Source: Halorientalis litorea (GTDB taxonomy: Archaea > Halobacteriota > Halobacteria > Halobacteriales > Haloarculaceae). Taken from it: 64,000 bases of DNA. The position numbers and the translations under genes are program-made. This document shows, in pieces, positions 9,948 to 58,427 of the stretch. Where the stretch lies: the NCBI RefSeq assembly GCF_023028225.1, contig NZ_CP095482.1:1488001-1552000 (forward strand), read 5' to 3'. The notes beneath the pieces were generated by a model that did no database searches, was not told the origin of the DNA, and saw nothing but the letters and a program-made list of their open reading frames with translations. The stretch's first letter is position 1. Every line of letters begins with the position of its first letter.

Positions 9948-11165
9948 ATGCCCTCGCGCCGACAGGCACTCCGACTCGCCGGTGCCGGTCTCACGACGGC
10001 CCTCGCGGGGTGTGCCGCCCGCCCGCCGCGGGCCGCACACGAGTTCGAACCGCTCGCGGACACCGCACTCGACACCGAGGCATTCGCACAGTTTCAGGGC
10101 GGCCTCCGCAACCACGGGTACGTCGAGGCGACCGTTCCCGACGCGGTGACGGTGGACTGGTCGCTTCCGGTCAACCGCGGCGACCACACCGCCGCTAAGT
10201 CCACGCCCGTCGCCACGCCCGACGGCGACGTTCTCGTCGCGGCCGACACCGGTGACCTCCGGCGCGTGACGCCCGACGGCGAGGTGGTCTGGAGGAGTTC
10301 GGTCGACCCGACGACCCGCGGCATCCACGGCACGCCCGCCGTCGCCAACGGGAGTGCCTACGTGGGTGCCTACGACGGCGCGCTGTACGCCTTCGACCTC
10401 GAAACCGGCCGACGGCAGTGGCGCGCAGAACTAGGCGACGCCATCGGGTCCAGCCCCGTCTACTACAACGGGTACTGCTACATCGCCGTCGAGTACTACG
10501 ACCCCAGCGGGAGCGTCGCGGCCGTCGACGCCCGGACCGGCGACGTGGCGTGGTACGACGGCCGTCCGACCAACCACCCCCACTCGACCATCGGCATCGA
10601 CCGCGAGGCGGGCCGTCTCGTCGTCGGGGCCAACGACGGCGTCTGCTACGGATGGACCTTCCCCGAGATGGAACGGGCGTGGACGTTCGAGACGGACGGC
10701 GAAATCAAGGGACCGGTCGCCCTCACCGACGGCCTCGCCGTCTTCGGGTCGTGGGACGACACGGTGTACGCGGTGGCCCTCGACGACGGGCGCGAGGTGT
10801 GGACCTTCGAACCCGGGTCGGACGTGATGACCGGGCCGGCTATCGCCCCCGACGGCACCGTCTACGTCGGGAGCCACGACAGCCGAATATATGCCCTCGA
10901 CGGCACGAACGGCGAGGAGCGGTGGCAGTTCGACACGGACGGGTACGTCATCGGGTCGCTCACGGCGACGCCGGATACCGTCCTCGCGGGGTCGTGGGAC
11001 GGCACGATGTACGCCGTCGACGCCGACACCGGTCGGGCACGGTGGCTGGCGAACGGGCACGGCCACGCCACGAGTGCAGTGCTGGTCCGCGAGGACGCGC
11101 TCTACTACGCCGAACGCGCCACCGAGGACCGACCGGGCAACTGCTACCGGCTGGTCCCGGCCTGA
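9948..11165 (+). CDS. PQQ-binding-like beta-propeller lipoprotein (Tat-exported)
   Basis: 405-residue extracellular protein. The N-terminus MPSRRQALRLAGAGLTTALA followed by GC is a twin-arginine signal with a lipobox, so it should be folded in the cytoplasm, exported by Tat and lipid-anchored. The rest is a series of propeller blades with repeats such as GSAYVGAYDGALYAFDLETG, VYVGSHDSRIYALDGTNGEE and LAGSWDGTMYAVDADTGRAR. Such proteins may bind PQQ or act as protein-binding scaffolds; no dehydrogenase catalytic residues are evident. The MFS transporter starts 40 bases downstream on the same strand. Confidence 0.88.
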   Translation: MPSRRQALRLAGAGLTTALAGCAARPPRAAHEFEPLADTALDTEAFAQFQGGLRNHGYVEATVPDAVTVDWSLPVNRGDHTAAKSTPVATPDGDVLVAADTGDLRRVTPDGEVVWRSSVDPTTRGIHGTPAVANGSAYVGAYDGALYAFDLETGRRQWRAELGDAIGSSPVYYNGYCYIAVEYYDPSGSVAAVDARTGDVAWYDGRPTNHPHSTIGIDREAGRLVVGANDGVCYGWTFPEMERAWTFETDGEIKGPVALTDGLAVFGSWDDTVYAVALDDGREVWTFEPGSDVMTGPAIAPDGTVYVGSHDSRIYALDGTNGEERWQFDTDGYVIGSLTATPDTVLAGSWDGTMYAVDADTGRARWLANGHGHATSAVLVREDALYYAERATEDRPGNCYRLVPA

Positions 11166-11205
11166 GCATCGCAACTGTCTTGCCCGCCGGTTGGCAAGCC
11201 CGCCC

Positions 11206-12378
11206 GTGAACTGGGGCTACCGGTACACTGTCCTCCTCCTCTGTACCCTCGCGTTCGCCGCGACGATGGTGGCTCGCCTCGTCATCAGTCCGGTCGTCCC
11301 CGACATCGTGGACACTTTCCAGACGAGCAACGGTGCTATCGGCCTCGCGCTCACGGGGATGTGGGCCGCATACGCGCTCACGCAGTTCCCGAGCGGGGTC
11401 TTGGGCGACCGCTTCGGCGAACGGAAAGTCATCCTCGCCGCGCTGGCAGGGACGACGGTGTTCAGCCTCGTGTTGACGCTCTCGACGACCTACCTCCTGT
11501 TTCTGGTCGGAGCCGTCCTCCTCGGGGCCGCCACGGGGCTGCACTACAGCGTCGCCGTGACGTTCATCACGCGCCAGTTCGACGCCGTCGGCCGCGCCAT
11601 CGGCGTCCACGTCGCGGGCGGCCCCTTCGCCGGACTGGTCACGCCCATCGCCGCGGCGGCCGTGGCCGCACAGTTCGGCTGGCGGCCCGCACTCGCGCTG
11701 GGTGCGGCCGTGGCACTCCCCACGTTCGTCGTCTTCGCCCTCGGCATCCGCACGAGCGAACCGCAGCGTCCCGACCAGCCGATGGCCGACCGCCTCACCG
11801 TCGGCCCCATCGTCGAGTTGCTCTCCCGGCCCGAAATCGGCTACACCGTCGTGCTCGCGGTGCTGGGGGCGTTCACGTGGCAGGCCGTCGCTTCGTTCCT
11901 GCCTGCCTTCCTCGAACAGGGACGGGGGTTCTCCACCACGACGGCGGGCCTGCTGTTCTCGGCGTACTTCGTCGTCCACGGCGCGACCCAACCCGTGATG
12001 GGGCAACTCTCGGACTACTACTCCCGGGACATCGTGGTCGCGGGGGCGATGGGCCTCGGCGTCGTCGGCTTCGGGACGCTCGTGGTCGGTGAGGGACTCG
12101 CGACCGCCGTCCCGTCCGTCGTCTGCATCGGCGTGGCGATGAGTTGGGGCGCGCCCCTCCAGTCGCGGTTCATCGACGTCCTCTCCGACGCCGAGCGCGG
12201 GGCCGGGTTCGGACTGGTCAGGACCGTCTACATGACGCTCGGCGCGCTCGGGAGCGTCGTCACCGGGTCGACGGCTGACCTGTTCGGGTGGATGGCCGCC
12301 TTCGCGCTCCTCGCGGTCATCATGGGCGTCGGCGTCCTCGCCATCGCCGCCAACCTCCTGTTGCACCTGGGCTACTGA
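11206..12378 (+). CDS. MFS transporter
   Basis: About 390 residues with twelve predicted membrane helices. The loop 2-3 signature of the major facilitator superfamily is visible as GVLGDRFGERKVI, and there is a related segment in the second half near VMGQLSDYYSRDIVVAG. I chose the GTG at 11206 (VNWGYRYTVLLLCTLAFAAT) because the frame upstream overlaps the preceding gene out of register. Substrate unknown; the general layout resembles nitrate/sugar-phosphate or drug transporters without diagnostic residues. Confidence 0.88.
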   Translation: MNWGYRYTVLLLCTLAFAATMVARLVISPVVPDIVDTFQTSNGAIGLALTGMWAAYALTQFPSGVLGDRFGERKVILAALAGTTVFSLVLTLSTTYLLFLVGAVLLGAATGLHYSVAVTFITRQFDAVGRAIGVHVAGGPFAGLVTPIAAAAVAAQFGWRPALALGAAVALPTFVVFALGIRTSEPQRPDQPMADRLTVGPIVELLSRPEIGYTVVLAVLGAFTWQAVASFLPAFLEQGRGFSTTTAGLLFSAYFVVHGATQPVMGQLSDYYSRDIVVAGAMGLGVVGFGTLVVGEGLATAVPSVVCIGVAMSWGAPLQSRFIDVLSDAERGAGFGLVRTVYMTLGALGSVVTGSTADLFGWMAAFALLAVIMGVGVLAIAANLLLHLGY

Positions 12379-48293: not shown

Positions 48294-50012
48294 CTAGGGC
48301 CGCTCCCGGTCGGCGTCGCGGTCCGCGTCCGCCGTCTCGAAACTCCGGGTGAACGTCACGCTGACGCGCGTGCCTGAGTCGTCGGCGTCGATGTCGAGGC
48401 TCGCCTCGGAGTTTCGGACGACCCAATCGACCAGCCACAGCCCCAGCCCCGACCCGTGGTTGAGTTGGTCTATCGACCGACTGTAGAACACCTGCCGTTC
48501 CTGCTGGGTGATACCCGGGCCGTCGTCCTCGACGACGAGCCGGACGGCTTCGGCCGCCGTCTCGACGGCGACCCGGACCGACGGCGCGGGCCCCTCGTTG
48601 TGGTCGATGGCGTTCTCGACGAGGCTCCGCACCGCCAGCGTGACCGCCTCGTCGGCACGGACCCACGCTTCCGTCGGGGTCTCGACTTCGATGACGGCCG
48701 TCGGGTACTTCTCCGTCGCCCAGTCGACGGTGTCGCTGACGACAGCCACGAGGTCGATGTCGTAGCGGTCCCTGTCGGCGTCGACCAGCGACTCTATCGC
48801 CCGCGCCGTCTCGGCCGTCTCGATGATGTCGTCCGCGCTGTCGACGACCCGTCGGGCCTTCTCGCGCAGGTCGCCGTCCGTCCTGTGTGCGAGCAGTTCC
48901 CCGTTCATCCGGACGACGTTCAGCTTGTTTCTGATGTCGTGACGCAGGACCCTGCCGAGGACCTCCCGCAGGAGTTCGAGGTCCTCCTCGTGGCGCATCA
49001 GTTCGGTCTGGTCTTTCAGCGCGACGACCCACCCTATCGCGGCCTCTCCCTGCTCGATTGGGGTCTTGCTCACGGTCAGGAACCGCTCGTCGCCCGCGGA
49101 CGAGACTGCGACCGTCCGGTCGGTGACTGGCCCGCCGTGGAGTGCCGATTGGAGCGACGGGAACGGGTCGAGTACCGCTTCGAGGCGTCGGCCGGCGGGG
49201 TCTCCGTCGGTGTCTAACATCACCTGCGCGGCCGGGTTCGCGTCGGTGATGACCATCTCTTCGTCGAGGATGAGGACGCCCTCGTCCATCTCGCGGAGGG
49301 CCGTCCGGCGGGCGATGGGCATCGCTCGCAGCAGGCGGTACCGGAACAGTGCCCACCCCCAGATGCTGACGCCGACGAGGAACCCGACCGGCGTCGGGTT
49401 GAGGTAGTCCGTCGGGAACACGCCGGAGACGAACACGACGGACGTCGCCGCCGGAACGACCCAGCCGACGAGCATCAGTGCCGCCTGTTTCCGGTACAGC
49501 CCCTTGCGGTCGACGAGCGCGACGACGAGGAGGACGAGACTCGTGACGACGAGCAGGTAGCCGTAGCCGGTGTGCAGGAAAAAGCCGATACCGTGGTCCA
49601 ACTGGAGAACGCCGCGCGCGTCGACGAACGTCTCGGGACCCCAGAACAGTCCGTGGAGCGAGTTCGTCCAGAGCAGGAGTTGGACGGCCACGGGCACGAC
49701 GAGTACCGGGGCGATGATTCGGTAGCCGACGTGTGTCCGCCACGTGTACTCGATAGCCATGAACAACATTCCGACGAACGCGACGGTGACGAACACGATG
49801 ACGAGGTTCATGCTCAGCAGCGAGAGCGTGTACCCGTTGAACAGCAACATCAACCCCCAGCAGACGGCCCACCCCGTCGCCCCGGAGAGCGCGAGGACGA
49901 ACCAGCGGCCACCCGGCTGTTCGCGGTGGTCCCAGAGCCGACAAATCAGGTATCCCGTCGGAAGGACTGTGAGCAACAGGAAAGCCGCGTAGAGGTCCGT
50001 GCCAACCAACAC
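48294..50012 (-). CDS. Sensor histidine kinase with N-terminal 7TM domain and PAS
   Basis: 572 residues from the GTG at 50012. Residues 1-228 are seven hydrophobic helices (HisKA_7TM type). Residues about 235-340 form a PAS domain (MDEGVLILDEEMVITDANPA). H358 in VLGRVLRHDIRNKLNVVRMN is the phospho-acceptor, and the HATPase region has N box SLVENAIDHNEG, G1 VEDDGPGITQQE and G2 SGLGLWLVDWVV. TATA-like AATTAAATAG at about 50034-50043 gives leaderless spacing. No cognate regulator is adjacent; the HalX response regulator at 1855 is a distant candidate. Confidence 0.94.
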   Translation of the reverse strand: MLVGTDLYAAFLLLTVLPTGYLICRLWDHREQPGGRWFVLALSGATGWAVCWGLMLLFNGYTLSLLSMNLVIVFVTVAFVGMLFMAIEYTWRTHVGYRIIAPVLVVPVAVQLLLWTNSLHGLFWGPETFVDARGVLQLDHGIGFFLHTGYGYLLVVTSLVLLVVALVDRKGLYRKQAALMLVGWVVPAATSVVFVSGVFPTDYLNPTPVGFLVGVSIWGWALFRYRLLRAMPIARRTALREMDEGVLILDEEMVITDANPAAQVMLDTDGDPAGRRLEAVLDPFPSLQSALHGGPVTDRTVAVSSAGDERFLTVSKTPIEQGEAAIGWVVALKDQTELMRHEEDLELLREVLGRVLRHDIRNKLNVVRMNGELLAHRTDGDLREKARRVVDSADDIIETAETARAIESLVDADRDRYDIDLVAVVSDTVDWATEKYPTAVIEVETPTEAWVRADEAVTLAVRSLVENAIDHNEGPAPSVRVAVETAAEAVRLVVEDDGPGITQQERQVFYSRSIDQLNHGSGLGLWLVDWVVRNSEASLDIDADDSGTRVSVTFTRSFETADADRDADRERP

Positions 50013-54151: not shown

Positions 54152-55189
54152 TTATTCGTCCATCAGGCCGCCTTCCTCGACGCGCATGACGCCCTCGCCG
54201 TCGGGGAGGTTCGGCGCGTCGACGAGTTTGACGATGCGCTTGTTCCCCTTGGACTTGCGGAGGTACATGCGGAACGTGGAGGTGTGTCCGAGGATGTTGC
54301 CGCCGATGGGTTGGGTCGGGTCGCCGAAGAAGGAGTCGGGGTTGGCCGCCACCTGATTGGTGACGACGACGGCGGTGTTGTTCAGGTCGCCGACGCGCAT
54401 CAGGTCGTGGAGGTGCTTGTTGAGCTTCTGCTGGCGTTCGGCGAGTTCGCCACGGCCGACGTACTCGGCGCGGAAGTGGGCGGTCAGTGAGTCGACACAG
54501 AGGAGACGGACGGGGAACTCGTCGTCTTGGCTCTCGCTGGCGAGTTCCTTCGCCTTCTCGGCGAGCAGAATCTGGTGGTTGGAGTTGAAGGCCTTGGCGA
54601 CGTGGATGTTGTCGAGTACCGCCTCGACCAGTGCCTCGACGTCTTCTTCGTTGTCGACGCTTGCCTCCTCCATCCCGAACAACTCCATCGTGTCCTGGAG
54701 TACCTCGTCGTCGTGTCCGCGGACCATCTGGTCGATACGCTCGGGACGGAAGGTGTCCTCGGAGTCGACGAAGATGGCACTGCCCTCCAGCCCCCCGTGT
54801 TCACTCGGGAGCTGGACGTTCACCGCGAGCTGGTGGGTGACCTGTGACTTCCCGGCACCGAACTCGCCGTACACTTCGGTGATGGACTGGGTTTCGACGC
54901 CGCCGCCGAGCAAGTCGTCGACTTCTTCGACGCCCCACGTGAGTTTGCCGATTTGCTCGCGGCGTTCGAGGACCTGCGCGCCAGACTCGAAGCCGCCGAT
55001 GTCGGCGGCCTCGCGGGCGGCCTGAATGATGTCGGCGGCACTGGACTCGCCGATGTCGGCCGTGTTCGAGAGTTCCCCCGGACTCGCCACCGCGATGCCC
55101 TGATACGAGTCGAACCCGTTGTCCTGTAGCTTCTCCGCTGTCGCCGGACCCACGCCCGGCAGTTCTTCGAGGTCTTCGGTTGCTGCCAT
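54152..55189 (-). CDS. radA: RadA recombinase
   Basis: 345-residue archaeal RecA/Rad51 homologue, strand exchange in homologous recombination. The N-terminal HhH is [20 protein letters not shown]. Walker A is GEFGAGKS (residues 108-115), Walker B in [20 protein letters not shown], and loop 2 region [20 protein letters not shown]. No intein is visible. TATA TTTATG at 55214-55219 gives a start at 55189 with leaderless spacing. Convergent with sufU. Confidence 0.97.
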
Positions 55190-55340: not shown

Positions 55341-55350
55341 ATTTATATAG
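55341..55350 (+). promoter_or_regulatory. TATA box of first 7TM protein
   Basis: ATTTATATAG centred about 30 bases before the ATG at 55377, in an A+T-rich 60-base block; supports a leaderless mRNA. Confidence 0.55.
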
Positions 55351-55376: not shown

Positions 55377-56039
55377 ATGGTGGAGCTGACAACGCTCACA
55401 ATTCCGCTGTGGGTTGTCGTTGTACTGGGGACGGGGCTGTTCGCACTGACCGCGCTCAACCGAGAACAGAAGGGAGCGTACTCGCTGATGGGTATCTTCG
55501 GCGGGGCCGTTCTCTGGGCTGGCGGTTACGCCGTCGAGTTGACGAACCAGATGTTCCTCGCACACGCCATCAGATTCGCCGGTGCCGGTATCGTTCCGGT
55601 CGCGATTTTCGTCATCGCGCTCCAGCTCACCGGCCGTGAGGAACTGGTGACCGCTCGGAACGTCGGCGGCATCTTCGCCGTCTTGTTCGGGTTGTTCGCA
55701 CTCATCCTCACGAACTCGATGCACGAACTCTGGGCGGTCCAGAGTACGATAACGAACGCGGCCGTCGACGGCGCGAGCATCCAGTGGGGGCCGCTGTTCT
55801 ACGTCGCCTCCACTGCCCTGATGTTGCTTGCTGTGGCCGCGTTGGGGCTGTTCGGCCAACGTGCACTCCAACAGGACACCGACTCGTTCATCACGACGCC
55901 GTCGGTGTTCGTCCTCGTCACGGCGATTCCAGTCGTCACCTATACCGTCTACCTCGTCGGGATGACCACGATCGACGCGACGCCGTTCACGTTCCTCGTC
56001 TCCGGCCTGCTGATGATATTCGCGATGTTCTACCTCTGA
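55377..56039 (+). CDS. Stand-alone 7TM sensor domain (no kinase), 220 aa
   Basis: Seven predicted helices, beginning MVELTTLTIPLWVVVVLGTG. Contains QKGAYSLMGIFGGAVLWAGG and IVPVAIFVIALQLTGREEL, like the N-terminal HisKA_7TM domain of histidine kinases such as the 48294-50012 gene. Ends at VSGLLMIFAMFYL, exactly where the 7TM domain stops in kinases; PAS, H-box and ATPase regions are absent and the following 100 bases have no kinase frame. It may pair with a separate kinase or signal by itself. Paralogue immediately downstream. Confidence 0.82.
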   Translation: MVELTTLTIPLWVVVVLGTGLFALTALNREQKGAYSLMGIFGGAVLWAGGYAVELTNQMFLAHAIRFAGAGIVPVAIFVIALQLTGREELVTARNVGGIFAVLFGLFALILTNSMHELWAVQSTITNAAVDGASIQWGPLFYVASTALMLLAVAALGLFGQRALQQDTDSFITTPSVFVLVTAIPVVTYTVYLVGMTTIDATPFTFLVSGLLMIFAMFYL

Positions 56040-56116
56040 CCGGCGACGATTCGGACGCGGATCTTACGCTTTTTCCGACGCGCAGAGCCGTGTCGCCCCC
56101 CGTTGCCGGCACATAC

Positions 56117-56128
56117 TTATATATTATA
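56117..56128 (+). promoter_or_regulatory. TATA box of second 7TM protein
   Basis: TTATATATTATA about 27 bases before the ATG at 56150; the gene therefore has its own promoter in addition to any read-through. Confidence 0.55.
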
Positions 56129-56149
56129 ACGAATTGACACCCTTCTGGG

Positions 56150-56818
56150 ATGGTGGTGGAAGTCACGCCGCTTACAGTCCCGTTGCTCGTCGTCGCCGTC
56201 GTGGGGGCCGGGTTGGCGGTACTGTCGTTGAACTACCGCGGACAGAAGGGGGCGTATCCGCTCGCCGGTGTGTTCAGCGGGGCGGCACTCTGGGCGGGTG
56301 CGTACGCGCTCGAACTGTCGAGTACGGCCGTCGACCCAGCACTCTTGTGGCTCAGACTCCGATTCGTCGGCAGTACGGTCGTCCCCGTGGCGATTTTCGT
56401 CCTCGCGCTGGAACTGACCGACCGCGACGACCTGACGCTCCAGTACGTCCTCGCGCTGTTCGCGCTCCCGTCGTTCACCGCCGTCGCCGTCTGGCGGAAC
56501 CCCGCCGGTATCTGGGCGGCGCGGTACGTCTTCGACCCCGGAGCCGTCCCGTCGGTGACCGCCGACTGGGGGCCGTGGTTCGTCGTCTACGTCAGTTACC
56601 AGTTCACGCTCGCCGTCGGGGCCATCTTCCTGTTCGCGCGGCGGGCCGTCGACCGCGAGGGGGCACGGAGCAACACCGCGTCGCTCCTCCTCGTGGCGAC
56701 GGTGCTTCCCGCCGTCGGCACCGGCCTGTACGTCGCCGGCGTCTCGGGCATCGACTACGGGGCGTTCGCCTTCCTCCCCGCGGGCCTGTTGATGTTGGTC
56801 GCGATGTTCTACCTCTGA
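56150..56818 (+). CDS. Stand-alone 7TM sensor domain paralogue, 222 aa
   Basis: Paralogue of the preceding gene: QKGAYPLAGVFSGAALWAGA and VVPVAIFVLALELTDRDDL align with it, and the ending PAGLLMLVAMFYL is nearly the same. Starts MVVEVTPLTVPLLVVAVVGA. Divergence is high in helices 4-7 (for example WGPWFVVYVSYQFTLAVGAI), so the duplication is old. No kinase domain follows; the next gene is on the other strand. Ligand or partner unknown. Confidence 0.82.
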   Translation: MVVEVTPLTVPLLVVAVVGAGLAVLSLNYRGQKGAYPLAGVFSGAALWAGAYALELSSTAVDPALLWLRLRFVGSTVVPVAIFVLALELTDRDDLTLQYVLALFALPSFTAVAVWRNPAGIWAARYVFDPGAVPSVTADWGPWFVVYVSYQFTLAVGAIFLFARRAVDREGARSNTASLLLVATVLPAVGTGLYVAGVSGIDYGAFAFLPAGLLMLVAMFYL

Positions 56819-56824
56819 GTGTCC

Positions 56825-57436
56825 TCACTCCCACGGGTGCCGACCCGCCCGCTCGGGCCAGAGCGGGTACCAGTACTCCTTGTCCCCTTCCACGTCGAGT
56901 TCCCCGTCCAGCACGCTCTCTAACTTGAACTCCGCGCCGGTATCCCGTTCGTGGTCGCCGACGGGTGCGAACGGGTAGTACGACCCGCGACGGAACGAGT
57001 ACACCCAGTAGACGGGCGTGTCGGCGTCGGGTTTCTCGAAGGCGAACAGTGCCGCGAGGAGCCGCGACCCGAACCCCTGTTCGACCAGCGTATCGGCCGC
57101 GAAGTGGACGCTCGTCACCAAATCTTCCACGTCGTCGTCCTCCAAGACGACCCAGTCGTAGCCGTGGCGGTCCCCGACGAACGCGGCGTCGGTGCCGGTC
57201 TCCTCCGCGCCCGCCGCGAGAATCGCCTCCACGTCGTCGACGGCGGCCGCGAAGTCGGTGCTGTCGACTGCGGCGAAACAGAGCGCGGCCACGCCCGCCG
57301 GTTCGTAATCGAGGTTGGCCGCCATCGTCACGTAGGCGGTACTCATCCCGAAGAGGTCCTCGGGGTCGGCGTCCCGCGTCGCGTCGGCCCCGGCCCGGAG
57401 TCCGAGTGCCGATTTCAGCCCGTCGAGCAGTCCCAT
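56825..57436 (-). CDS. pspAB: PspA-associated protein PspAB
   Basis: 203 residues. Begins MGLLDGLKSALGLRAGADAT; contains DPEDLFGMSTAYVTMAANLD and a Tyr/Trp-rich end (DKEYWYPLWPERAGRHPWE). Matches PspAB-type proteins that occur beside HtpX in archaea and bacteria (family knowledge). It follows htpX on the same strand with a 38-base gap, consistent with a membrane-stress operon. Confidence 0.85.
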   Translation of the reverse strand: MGLLDGLKSALGLRAGADATRDADPEDLFGMSTAYVTMAANLDYEPAGVAALCFAAVDSTDFAAAVDDVEAILAAGAEETGTDAAFVGDRHGYDWVVLEDDDVEDLVTSVHFAADTLVEQGFGSRLLAALFAFEKPDADTPVYWVYSFRRGSYYPFAPVGDHERDTGAEFKLESVLDGELDVEGDKEYWYPLWPERAGRHPWE

Positions 57437-57474
57437 CGTCGCTGTTTCGCGTCCGCGCTCCGTGTAGGTGTCGT

Positions 57475-58344
57475 TTACCGCTCCATCTCGCGCTCCATCG
57501 CCCGCAGTCGCTCGACCCGCCGTTCGGTCTGGGGGTGGGTCCGGGCCAACTTGCCGATGAACCCGCTCTTGATGGGGATGATGAAGAACGCGTTCATCTC
57601 GGCCTGTTCGCGCATGTCCTCCTGTGGGATCTTGTCCATCCGGCCGTCTATCTTCAGCAGCGCGCTCGCCAGCGCGGAGGGGCGGCCGGTTATCATCGCC
57701 CCGCCGCGGTCGGCCGCGAACTCGCGGTACCGCGAGAGCGCGCGGATGAGCAGGAACGAAACCACCCACACCACGAGGGAAATCAGGATGGCGACGATGA
57801 CGCCGCCCCCGCCGCGCCGGTTGCGCCCGCCGAACAGCCACCCCCAGCGGACGATGAAGAAGGCGATGGTCGAGAGAAACGACGCGATGGTCATCACCAT
57901 CACGTCCCGGTTCTTGATGTGGGCCAGTTCGTGGGCGAGCACGCCGTCGAGTTCCTCCCGGTCGAGGGTCTGTAGCAGGCCCGTCGTCACGGCGACGGCG
58001 GCGGTGTCTTTCGACCGGCCGGTGGCGAAGGCGTTGGGGACGTTCGACTCGGCGACGGCCACCGTCGGCATCGGCAGGTCGGCCTGCTGTGAGAGCCGCC
58101 GGACCGAGCGGTGGAGGTCCGGATACTCCGACTCGCTGACTTCCTTCGCACCCATGCTCCGCAGGGCGAGTTTGTCGCTGAAGAAAAACTGCGCGAGCAT
58201 GAACCCCCCCATCACGACGAGGATGGGCAGGTACCCCTCGAAGTACAGCGAGAGGACGCCGATGAACGCGACGTAGAGGACGCCGAGCAGAACCATGGTG
58301 AAGGCCATGCGGCCCCGGAGCCCCCAGTCTGTCTGCCACTCCAT
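57475..58344 (-). CDS. htpX: HtpX-like M48 membrane protease
   Basis: 289 residues. Zinc motif HELAH (H138-E139-x-x-H142) in LDGVLAHELAHIKNRDVMVM; third ligand Glu in YREFAADRGGAMITGRPSAL. About four membrane helices. The start at 58344 (MEWQTDWGLRGRMAFTMVLL) is preferred. Degrades misfolded membrane proteins; paired with PspAB downstream. Confidence 0.95.
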   Translation of the reverse strand: MEWQTDWGLRGRMAFTMVLLGVLYVAFIGVLSLYFEGYLPILVVMGGFMLAQFFFSDKLALRSMGAKEVSESEYPDLHRSVRRLSQQADLPMPTVAVAESNVPNAFATGRSKDTAAVAVTTGLLQTLDREELDGVLAHELAHIKNRDVMVMTIASFLSTIAFFIVRWGWLFGGRNRRGGGGVIVAILISLVVWVVSFLLIRALSRYREFAADRGGAMITGRPSALASALLKIDGRMDKIPQEDMREQAEMNAFFIIPIKSGFIGKLARTHPQTERRVERLRAMEREMER

Positions 58345-58427
58345 ACCTGCGATAGGGGACGGTGACAATTAAGCTCGCCGTGGTCGGAGCGGGCAACTTA
58401 ACAGCACCAGCGGTGTACCTGTCCGCA

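Follow-up and report, generated by a model that had tools for sequence, protein, structure and literature searches.

The question raised by this locus is what the sensor domain of a histidine kinase does when no kinase is attached to it. We analyzed a window of 64 kb (67% GC) from a Halorientalis genome (G000; 3.2 Mb, 99.9% complete), in which two adjacent genes separated by 110 nt encode proteins of 220 and 222 aa (copies 1 and 2; Table 1). A first-pass annotation had described them as the seven-transmembrane (7TM) sensor domain of a histidine kinase, ending with AMFYL at the junction to the kinase, and this description was borne out. Both proteins matched HisKA_7TM (PF16927) with Pfam scores of 96.1 and 129.4 bits, respectively, against a curated cut-off of 28.6, and the matches extended from profile position 2 or 3 to position 216 of 224, i.e., up to the end of TM7. 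HisKA_7TM was the sole Pfam domain above the cut-off in either copy. HisKA, PAS, and HATPase domains were absent according to Pfam, no NCBIfam model matched either protein, and the combination of a HisKA or dimerization domain with HATPase in the same protein, by which a histidine kinase is recognized in Pfam and NCBIfam, was found in neither. A hydropathy scan identified seven membrane segments per copy, with one segment of copy 1 being called as two, and the last hydrophobic segment reached the final residue in both. The copies are paralogs with 43% identity, and their AMFYL-stop ends are encoded by identical DNA, GCGATGTTCTACCTCTGA. These comparisons establish each copy, at the level of sequence, as a complete predicted sensor domain of kinase descent with nothing attached.

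Table 1. Coordinates of the features discussed (positions in the window unless a locus handle is given).
Feature	Coordinates	Strand	Evidence and remarks
Stand-alone HisKA_7TM protein, copy 1, 220 aa, end AMFYL	55377..56039	+	Pfam PF16927 E 3.6e-27, residues 12-219
Stand-alone HisKA_7TM protein, copy 2, 222 aa, end AMFYL	56150..56818	+	Pfam PF16927 E 2.4e-37, residues 12-221
TATA box of copy 1, TTTATATA	55342..55349	+	Unique in window; center ~31 nt before ATG
TATA box of copy 2, CTTATATA	56116..56123	+	Unique in window; center ~30 nt before ATG
RadA recombinase, left border of the slot, divergent	54152..55189	-	Pfam Rad51 E 1e-79; same border in six relatives
PspAB (PspA-associated protein B), right border, convergent with copy 2	56825..57439, start approximate	-	Pfam PF22742 E 5e-73 on 56828-57400
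HtpX-type M48 membrane protease, part of the old RadA-PspAB-HtpX block	57475..58368	-	Pfam Peptidase_M48 E 5.9e-39; synteny
Full-length 7TM-PAS-histidine kinase, distant relative, not parent	48294..50012	-	Pfam HisKA_7TM, PAS_4, HATPase_c; tree
7TM-PAS histidine kinases in the PspAB-HtpX gap of five relatives	L078:6361-8241, L080:6222-8156, L081:10065-12002, L082:9683-11692, L083:9546-11597		
Short gene in the RadA-PspAB gap of other genera	L136:931-1488, L142:538-1011, L150:2158-2658, L152:1002-1460, L141:2111-2551, L160:1057-1491		

Regarding the missing kinase half, the chain of typical kinases runs on past TM7 with ALFRYRLLDxxPxAR, which leads into the PAS and kinase domains, whereas the stand-alone proteins terminate after AMFYL at this point. 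No kinase remnant was found behind copy 1, in the gap between the two genes, or behind copy 2. A frameshifted kinase directly downstream, an objection foreseen in the first-pass annotation, was looked for and not detected; the antisense gene for PspAB, the stop codon of which lies on the opposite strand 6 nt past the end of copy 2, was present instead. This immediate antisense neighbor and the intact orthologs rule out a frameshifted or truncated kinase.

A single intact ortholog was located in the same slot in six of the eight other Halorientalis genomes, and the tandem pair was only observed in the genome of the window among the nine genomes of the genus. The window copies share 44-48% identity with these orthologs, and AMFYL forms the end of all eight proteins of the slot group (the six orthologs and two window copies). 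The search for further stand-alone copies with this end, which had been suggested as a check, yielded the six slot orthologs and, in addition, two groups of kinase-less paralogs with other ends: group B, found in five genomes, ends with IFYY or LFYY and is accompanied in the locus examined by MoxR-DUF58 genes and an amidohydrolase gene, and group C, found in two genomes, ends with ALHS or AVYS and has a YlbF-family gene adjacent and a diphthamide-synthesis gene near. At least one stand-alone member was present in all nine genomes. Pairwise dN/dS ratios, calculated by NG86 without correction for the strong GC bias, were 0.10-0.41 among the six single-copy slot orthologs and 0.16-0.37 in group B; pairs with the window copies gave 0.40-0.74, a range that is affected by saturation and to which a relaxation or change of selection following the duplication may also have contributed. 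As judged from these substitution ratios, the stand-alone 7TM protein has been kept by selection in the genus. The earlier view of receptor modules with no attached output is supported by the Pfam results and by the orthologs, in which this is a conserved state.

In a phylogenetic tree, the 13 stand-alone proteins tested formed one clade (support of 97/93) that was nested inside the 7TM kinases, with kinases of other genera and one kinase of the same genome (C1:2305875) as its neighbors. This topology is best explained by the kinase half having been lost once, and the simplest history suggested by these sequences is one such loss in the ancestor of the genus followed by duplication. The full-length kinase in the window to which the first-pass annotation had drawn attention is real, carrying HisKA_7TM, PAS, and HATPase; however, this genome encodes about 20 such kinases, and the one in the window is not the closest in the tree. 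HisKA_7TM kinases are numerous in haloarchaea in general. Copies 1 and 2 are the only stand-alone proteins among the 22 HisKA_7TM matches in the genome, the other matches being in frames of at least 555 codons. Neighboring full-length 7TM kinases also occur there in clusters of three and two (C1:1914818-1919258 and 2127561-2130677).

Outside the genus, a search of 344 genomes of the class with a stand-alone profile gave no stand-alone HisKA_7TM protein among the matches listed, down to an E value of about 1e-31. In nine genomes representing nine other haloarchaeal genera of several families, none of the 39 above-cut-off HisKA_7TM domains was stand-alone, and all were in frames of at least 545 codons. 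A short frame in G026 (L179:985-1620) was recognized as a decayed 7TM kinase, in which the first HisKA_7TM helices are fused in frame to an ATPase-domain scrap. Since these surveys yielded no stand-alone protein and the short frame of G026 is a decayed kinase, the family looks restricted to Halorientalis in this sample, and an independent origin of stand-alone HisKA_7TM proteins elsewhere is possible. The DNA pattern of the AMFYL-stop end was found in two of 394 genomes of the class, both of which belong to the genus, and is not supported as a wide signature; it missed four members of the genus because it allows TAA and TGA only and their genes end in TAG. A PDB sequence search with the stand-alone proteins retrieved no relative.

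The position of the pair between a divergent RadA gene and a convergent PspAB gene rules out an operon with these neighbors. The order in the six relatives is RadA (-), 7TM (+), and PspAB (-), with the 3' ends of the 7TM and PspAB genes overlapping. RadA and PspAB are separated by a gap of ~110-130 bases without a 7TM gene in the two other genomes of the genus, G074 and G100, and adjoin each other without a 7TM gene between them in most of the wider family; therefore, the RadA-PspAB-HtpX block is old and was most likely joined by the 7TM gene later, and a functional tie to PspAB or HtpX drawn from gene order is weak. Of the seven genomes that carry the slot gene, five have a 7TM kinase between PspAB and HtpX; because it is absent from this gap in the genome of the window and in G021, it is not supported as a fixed partner. 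The gap kinase of L081 is flanked by NMD3 in place of HtpX. The nearest relative of these gap kinases in the genome of the window is the kinase at C1:2571395 (45% identical), and G021 has another small membrane-protein-like frame in the gap (L079, about 10800-11500). The RadA-PspAB gap of some other genera holds a short gene (about 145-185 aa) that is unrelated to 7TM and shows a pattern like (V)YDHVR...GVYRVVG.

The first-pass annotation assigned a TATA box of its own and a leaderless start to each copy. The first part holds: each TATA octamer is unique within the 64 kb when both strands are counted, and the presence of one box per copy supports the putative separate transcription of copies 1 and 2. 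The spacing of ~30 nt to the ATG also fits the predicted starts being leaderless or near-leaderless. However, the orthologs do not share this trait; TTTATAT was found upstream of all six slot orthologs, where ~40 nt separate it from the most probable GTG start, and, thus, the leaderless start is not conserved in the genus.

The core conserved in the kinases is kept in copies 1/2 (Trp47/48, Gly69/74, Thr85/90, Arg87/92, Gly138/141-Pro, Pro185/187, and Asp200/202), whereas the slot group has lost both the Arg-x-Gln motif in the loop between TM5 and TM6 (70% and 82% among the compared kinases) and the basic hinge of the FRYRLL type that typically follows TM7 in kinases. A retained core together with the loss of features on the cytoplasmic face fits a receptor that is no longer coupled to its own kinase. 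Among the residues conserved in the family, copy 1 lacks two Trp and one Tyr and copy 2 lacks one Asn and one His, and these partly complementary losses may represent a division of labor. AlphaFold models of the two copies, based on only 6-7 sequences and of moderate confidence (pLDDT of 76 and 70), consisted of seven long helices, with TM7 extending to residue 219 of 220 in copy 1 and 221 of 222 in copy 2. The 50 best PDB matches of each low-depth model in Foldseek were GPCRs of several classes, apart from a single designed fold that is GPCR-like. These matches were weak (best E values of 9e-4 and 4.7e-3, TM mostly 0.5-0.64), and, considering the low depth of the models and an rmsd of mostly 6-9 Å, they indicate no more than that a GPCR-like arrangement of the helices is possible. 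Microbial rhodopsins were absent from the 50 best matches of each model, and neither copy has a lysine in TM7 or a rhodopsin match in Pfam up to an E value of 1.

Considering these features, there is about an even chance that copies 1 and 2 belong to a family of kinase-less 7TM sensor subunits that is restricted to the genus and acts in trans. We infer that these subunits most likely act on other proteins of the membrane, and full-length 7TM kinases may be among their targets. The 7TM core would still receive a cue from the membrane or the extracellular side, and, without a cytoplasmic part, this cue would be relayed sideways to another membrane protein via contacts between helices. The simplest target would be a full-length 7TM histidine kinase, with its activity being tuned or titrated, and the route may be through mixed dimers with full-length 7TM kinases or contact with another membrane protein; heteromerization with another protein is possible. 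In the genome of the window, the gene would perform this role twice, in copies that have diverged. Two points stand against sensing in trans, namely, gene order fixes no partner, with a promoter of its own, RadA divergent, and PspAB convergent, and the C-terminus lacks a coiled coil through which the protein could pair with a kinase. We only tentatively suggest that the proteins constitute a separable, non-rhodopsin 7TM receptor layer that signals sideways to partner kinases or effectors and was born in one genus by the splitting of a receptor kinase; if so, its logic would be comparable to that of sensory rhodopsin-Htr or GPCRs.

The main rival to a sensor subunit acting in trans is a non-signaling role, in which a repurposed membrane protein binds or moves small molecules or lipids or stabilizes the membrane, possibly in connection with envelope stress. 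The loss of the loop motif and kinase-ward hinge is consistent with such a role, as are the invariant C-terminus without a tail and the proximity of PspAB and HtpX, which are members of membrane-stress families. However, PspAB and HtpX are found beside RadA in most of the family without a 7TM gene, such that this neighborhood, being older than the 7TM gene, is weak evidence, and groups B and C have quite different neighbors (MoxR-DUF58 and amidohydrolase, and YlbF and diphthamide synthesis, respectively); we regard repurposing as rather unlikely. Heteromeric sensing by the two copies, as proposed in the first-pass annotation, has been weakened by the six relatives in which a single copy suffices in the same slot. 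An obligate heteromeric receptor formed by the copies with each other would explain the adjacent genes, similar promoters, and partly complementary losses of conserved residues; however, the tree does not settle whether the copies are sisters, and we regard such a receptor as unlikely. Since the tandem pair occurs in one genome only, an obligate two-subunit receptor is also improbable as the basic function of the family. Although the loss of the output half can be the initial step of decay and G026 holds such a remnant, the conserved end and the selection speak largely against the retention of decaying kinase remnants by chance, with intact frames in seven genomes sharing one end, ortholog dN/dS ratios well under 1, and a TATA box 5' of the gene in all seven genomes; this reading is extremely unlikely.

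The stand-alone proteins share the whole domain, seven helices, core residues, and descent with the HisKA_7TM sensor domain of haloarchaeal kinases, from which they differ in having no linker, PAS, HisKA, or HATPase, in stopping at TM7, and, in the slot group, in the loss of the loop Arg-x-Gln. Stand-alone REC and HalOD1 modules are soluble and widespread, but resemble the stand-alone proteins in being archaeal signaling modules without a fusion partner. They are discussed in a census of archaeal two-component systems, which lists HisKA_7TM among the sensor domains of haloarchaeal kinases and the available text of which contained no mention of a stand-alone HisKA_7TM (PMC5847659). The literature found on HisKA_7TM kinases reported no known signal.

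Sensory rhodopsins I and II of haloarchaea act via a separate transducer, Htr, and are likewise 7TM receptors with no output of their own, the signal passing sideways to a second membrane protein (PMC6798134). The stand-alone proteins differ from them in lacking the retinal lysine in TM7, a rhodopsin match in Pfam, and an adjacent transducer gene, and the tests performed here indicated no homology. UhpC is a transporter-like protein that, unlike the stand-alone proteins, has a known partner, UhpB. Accessory proteins in the bacterial inner membrane are described as binding signals and acting upon histidine kinases (PMC12691602), and the available text of this source cites UhpB-UhpC as a case in which a similarly kinase-less membrane protein tunes a kinase.

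Taken together, the stand-alone proteins are a genuine, small, and new genus-level branch of a known sensor family, and they show a young split of receptor and kinase within a single genus. As a natural receptor-only version with a fixed end at TM7 that is under selection, they are a tool for asking which cue is sensed by the 7TM part and whether its action requires a kinase.
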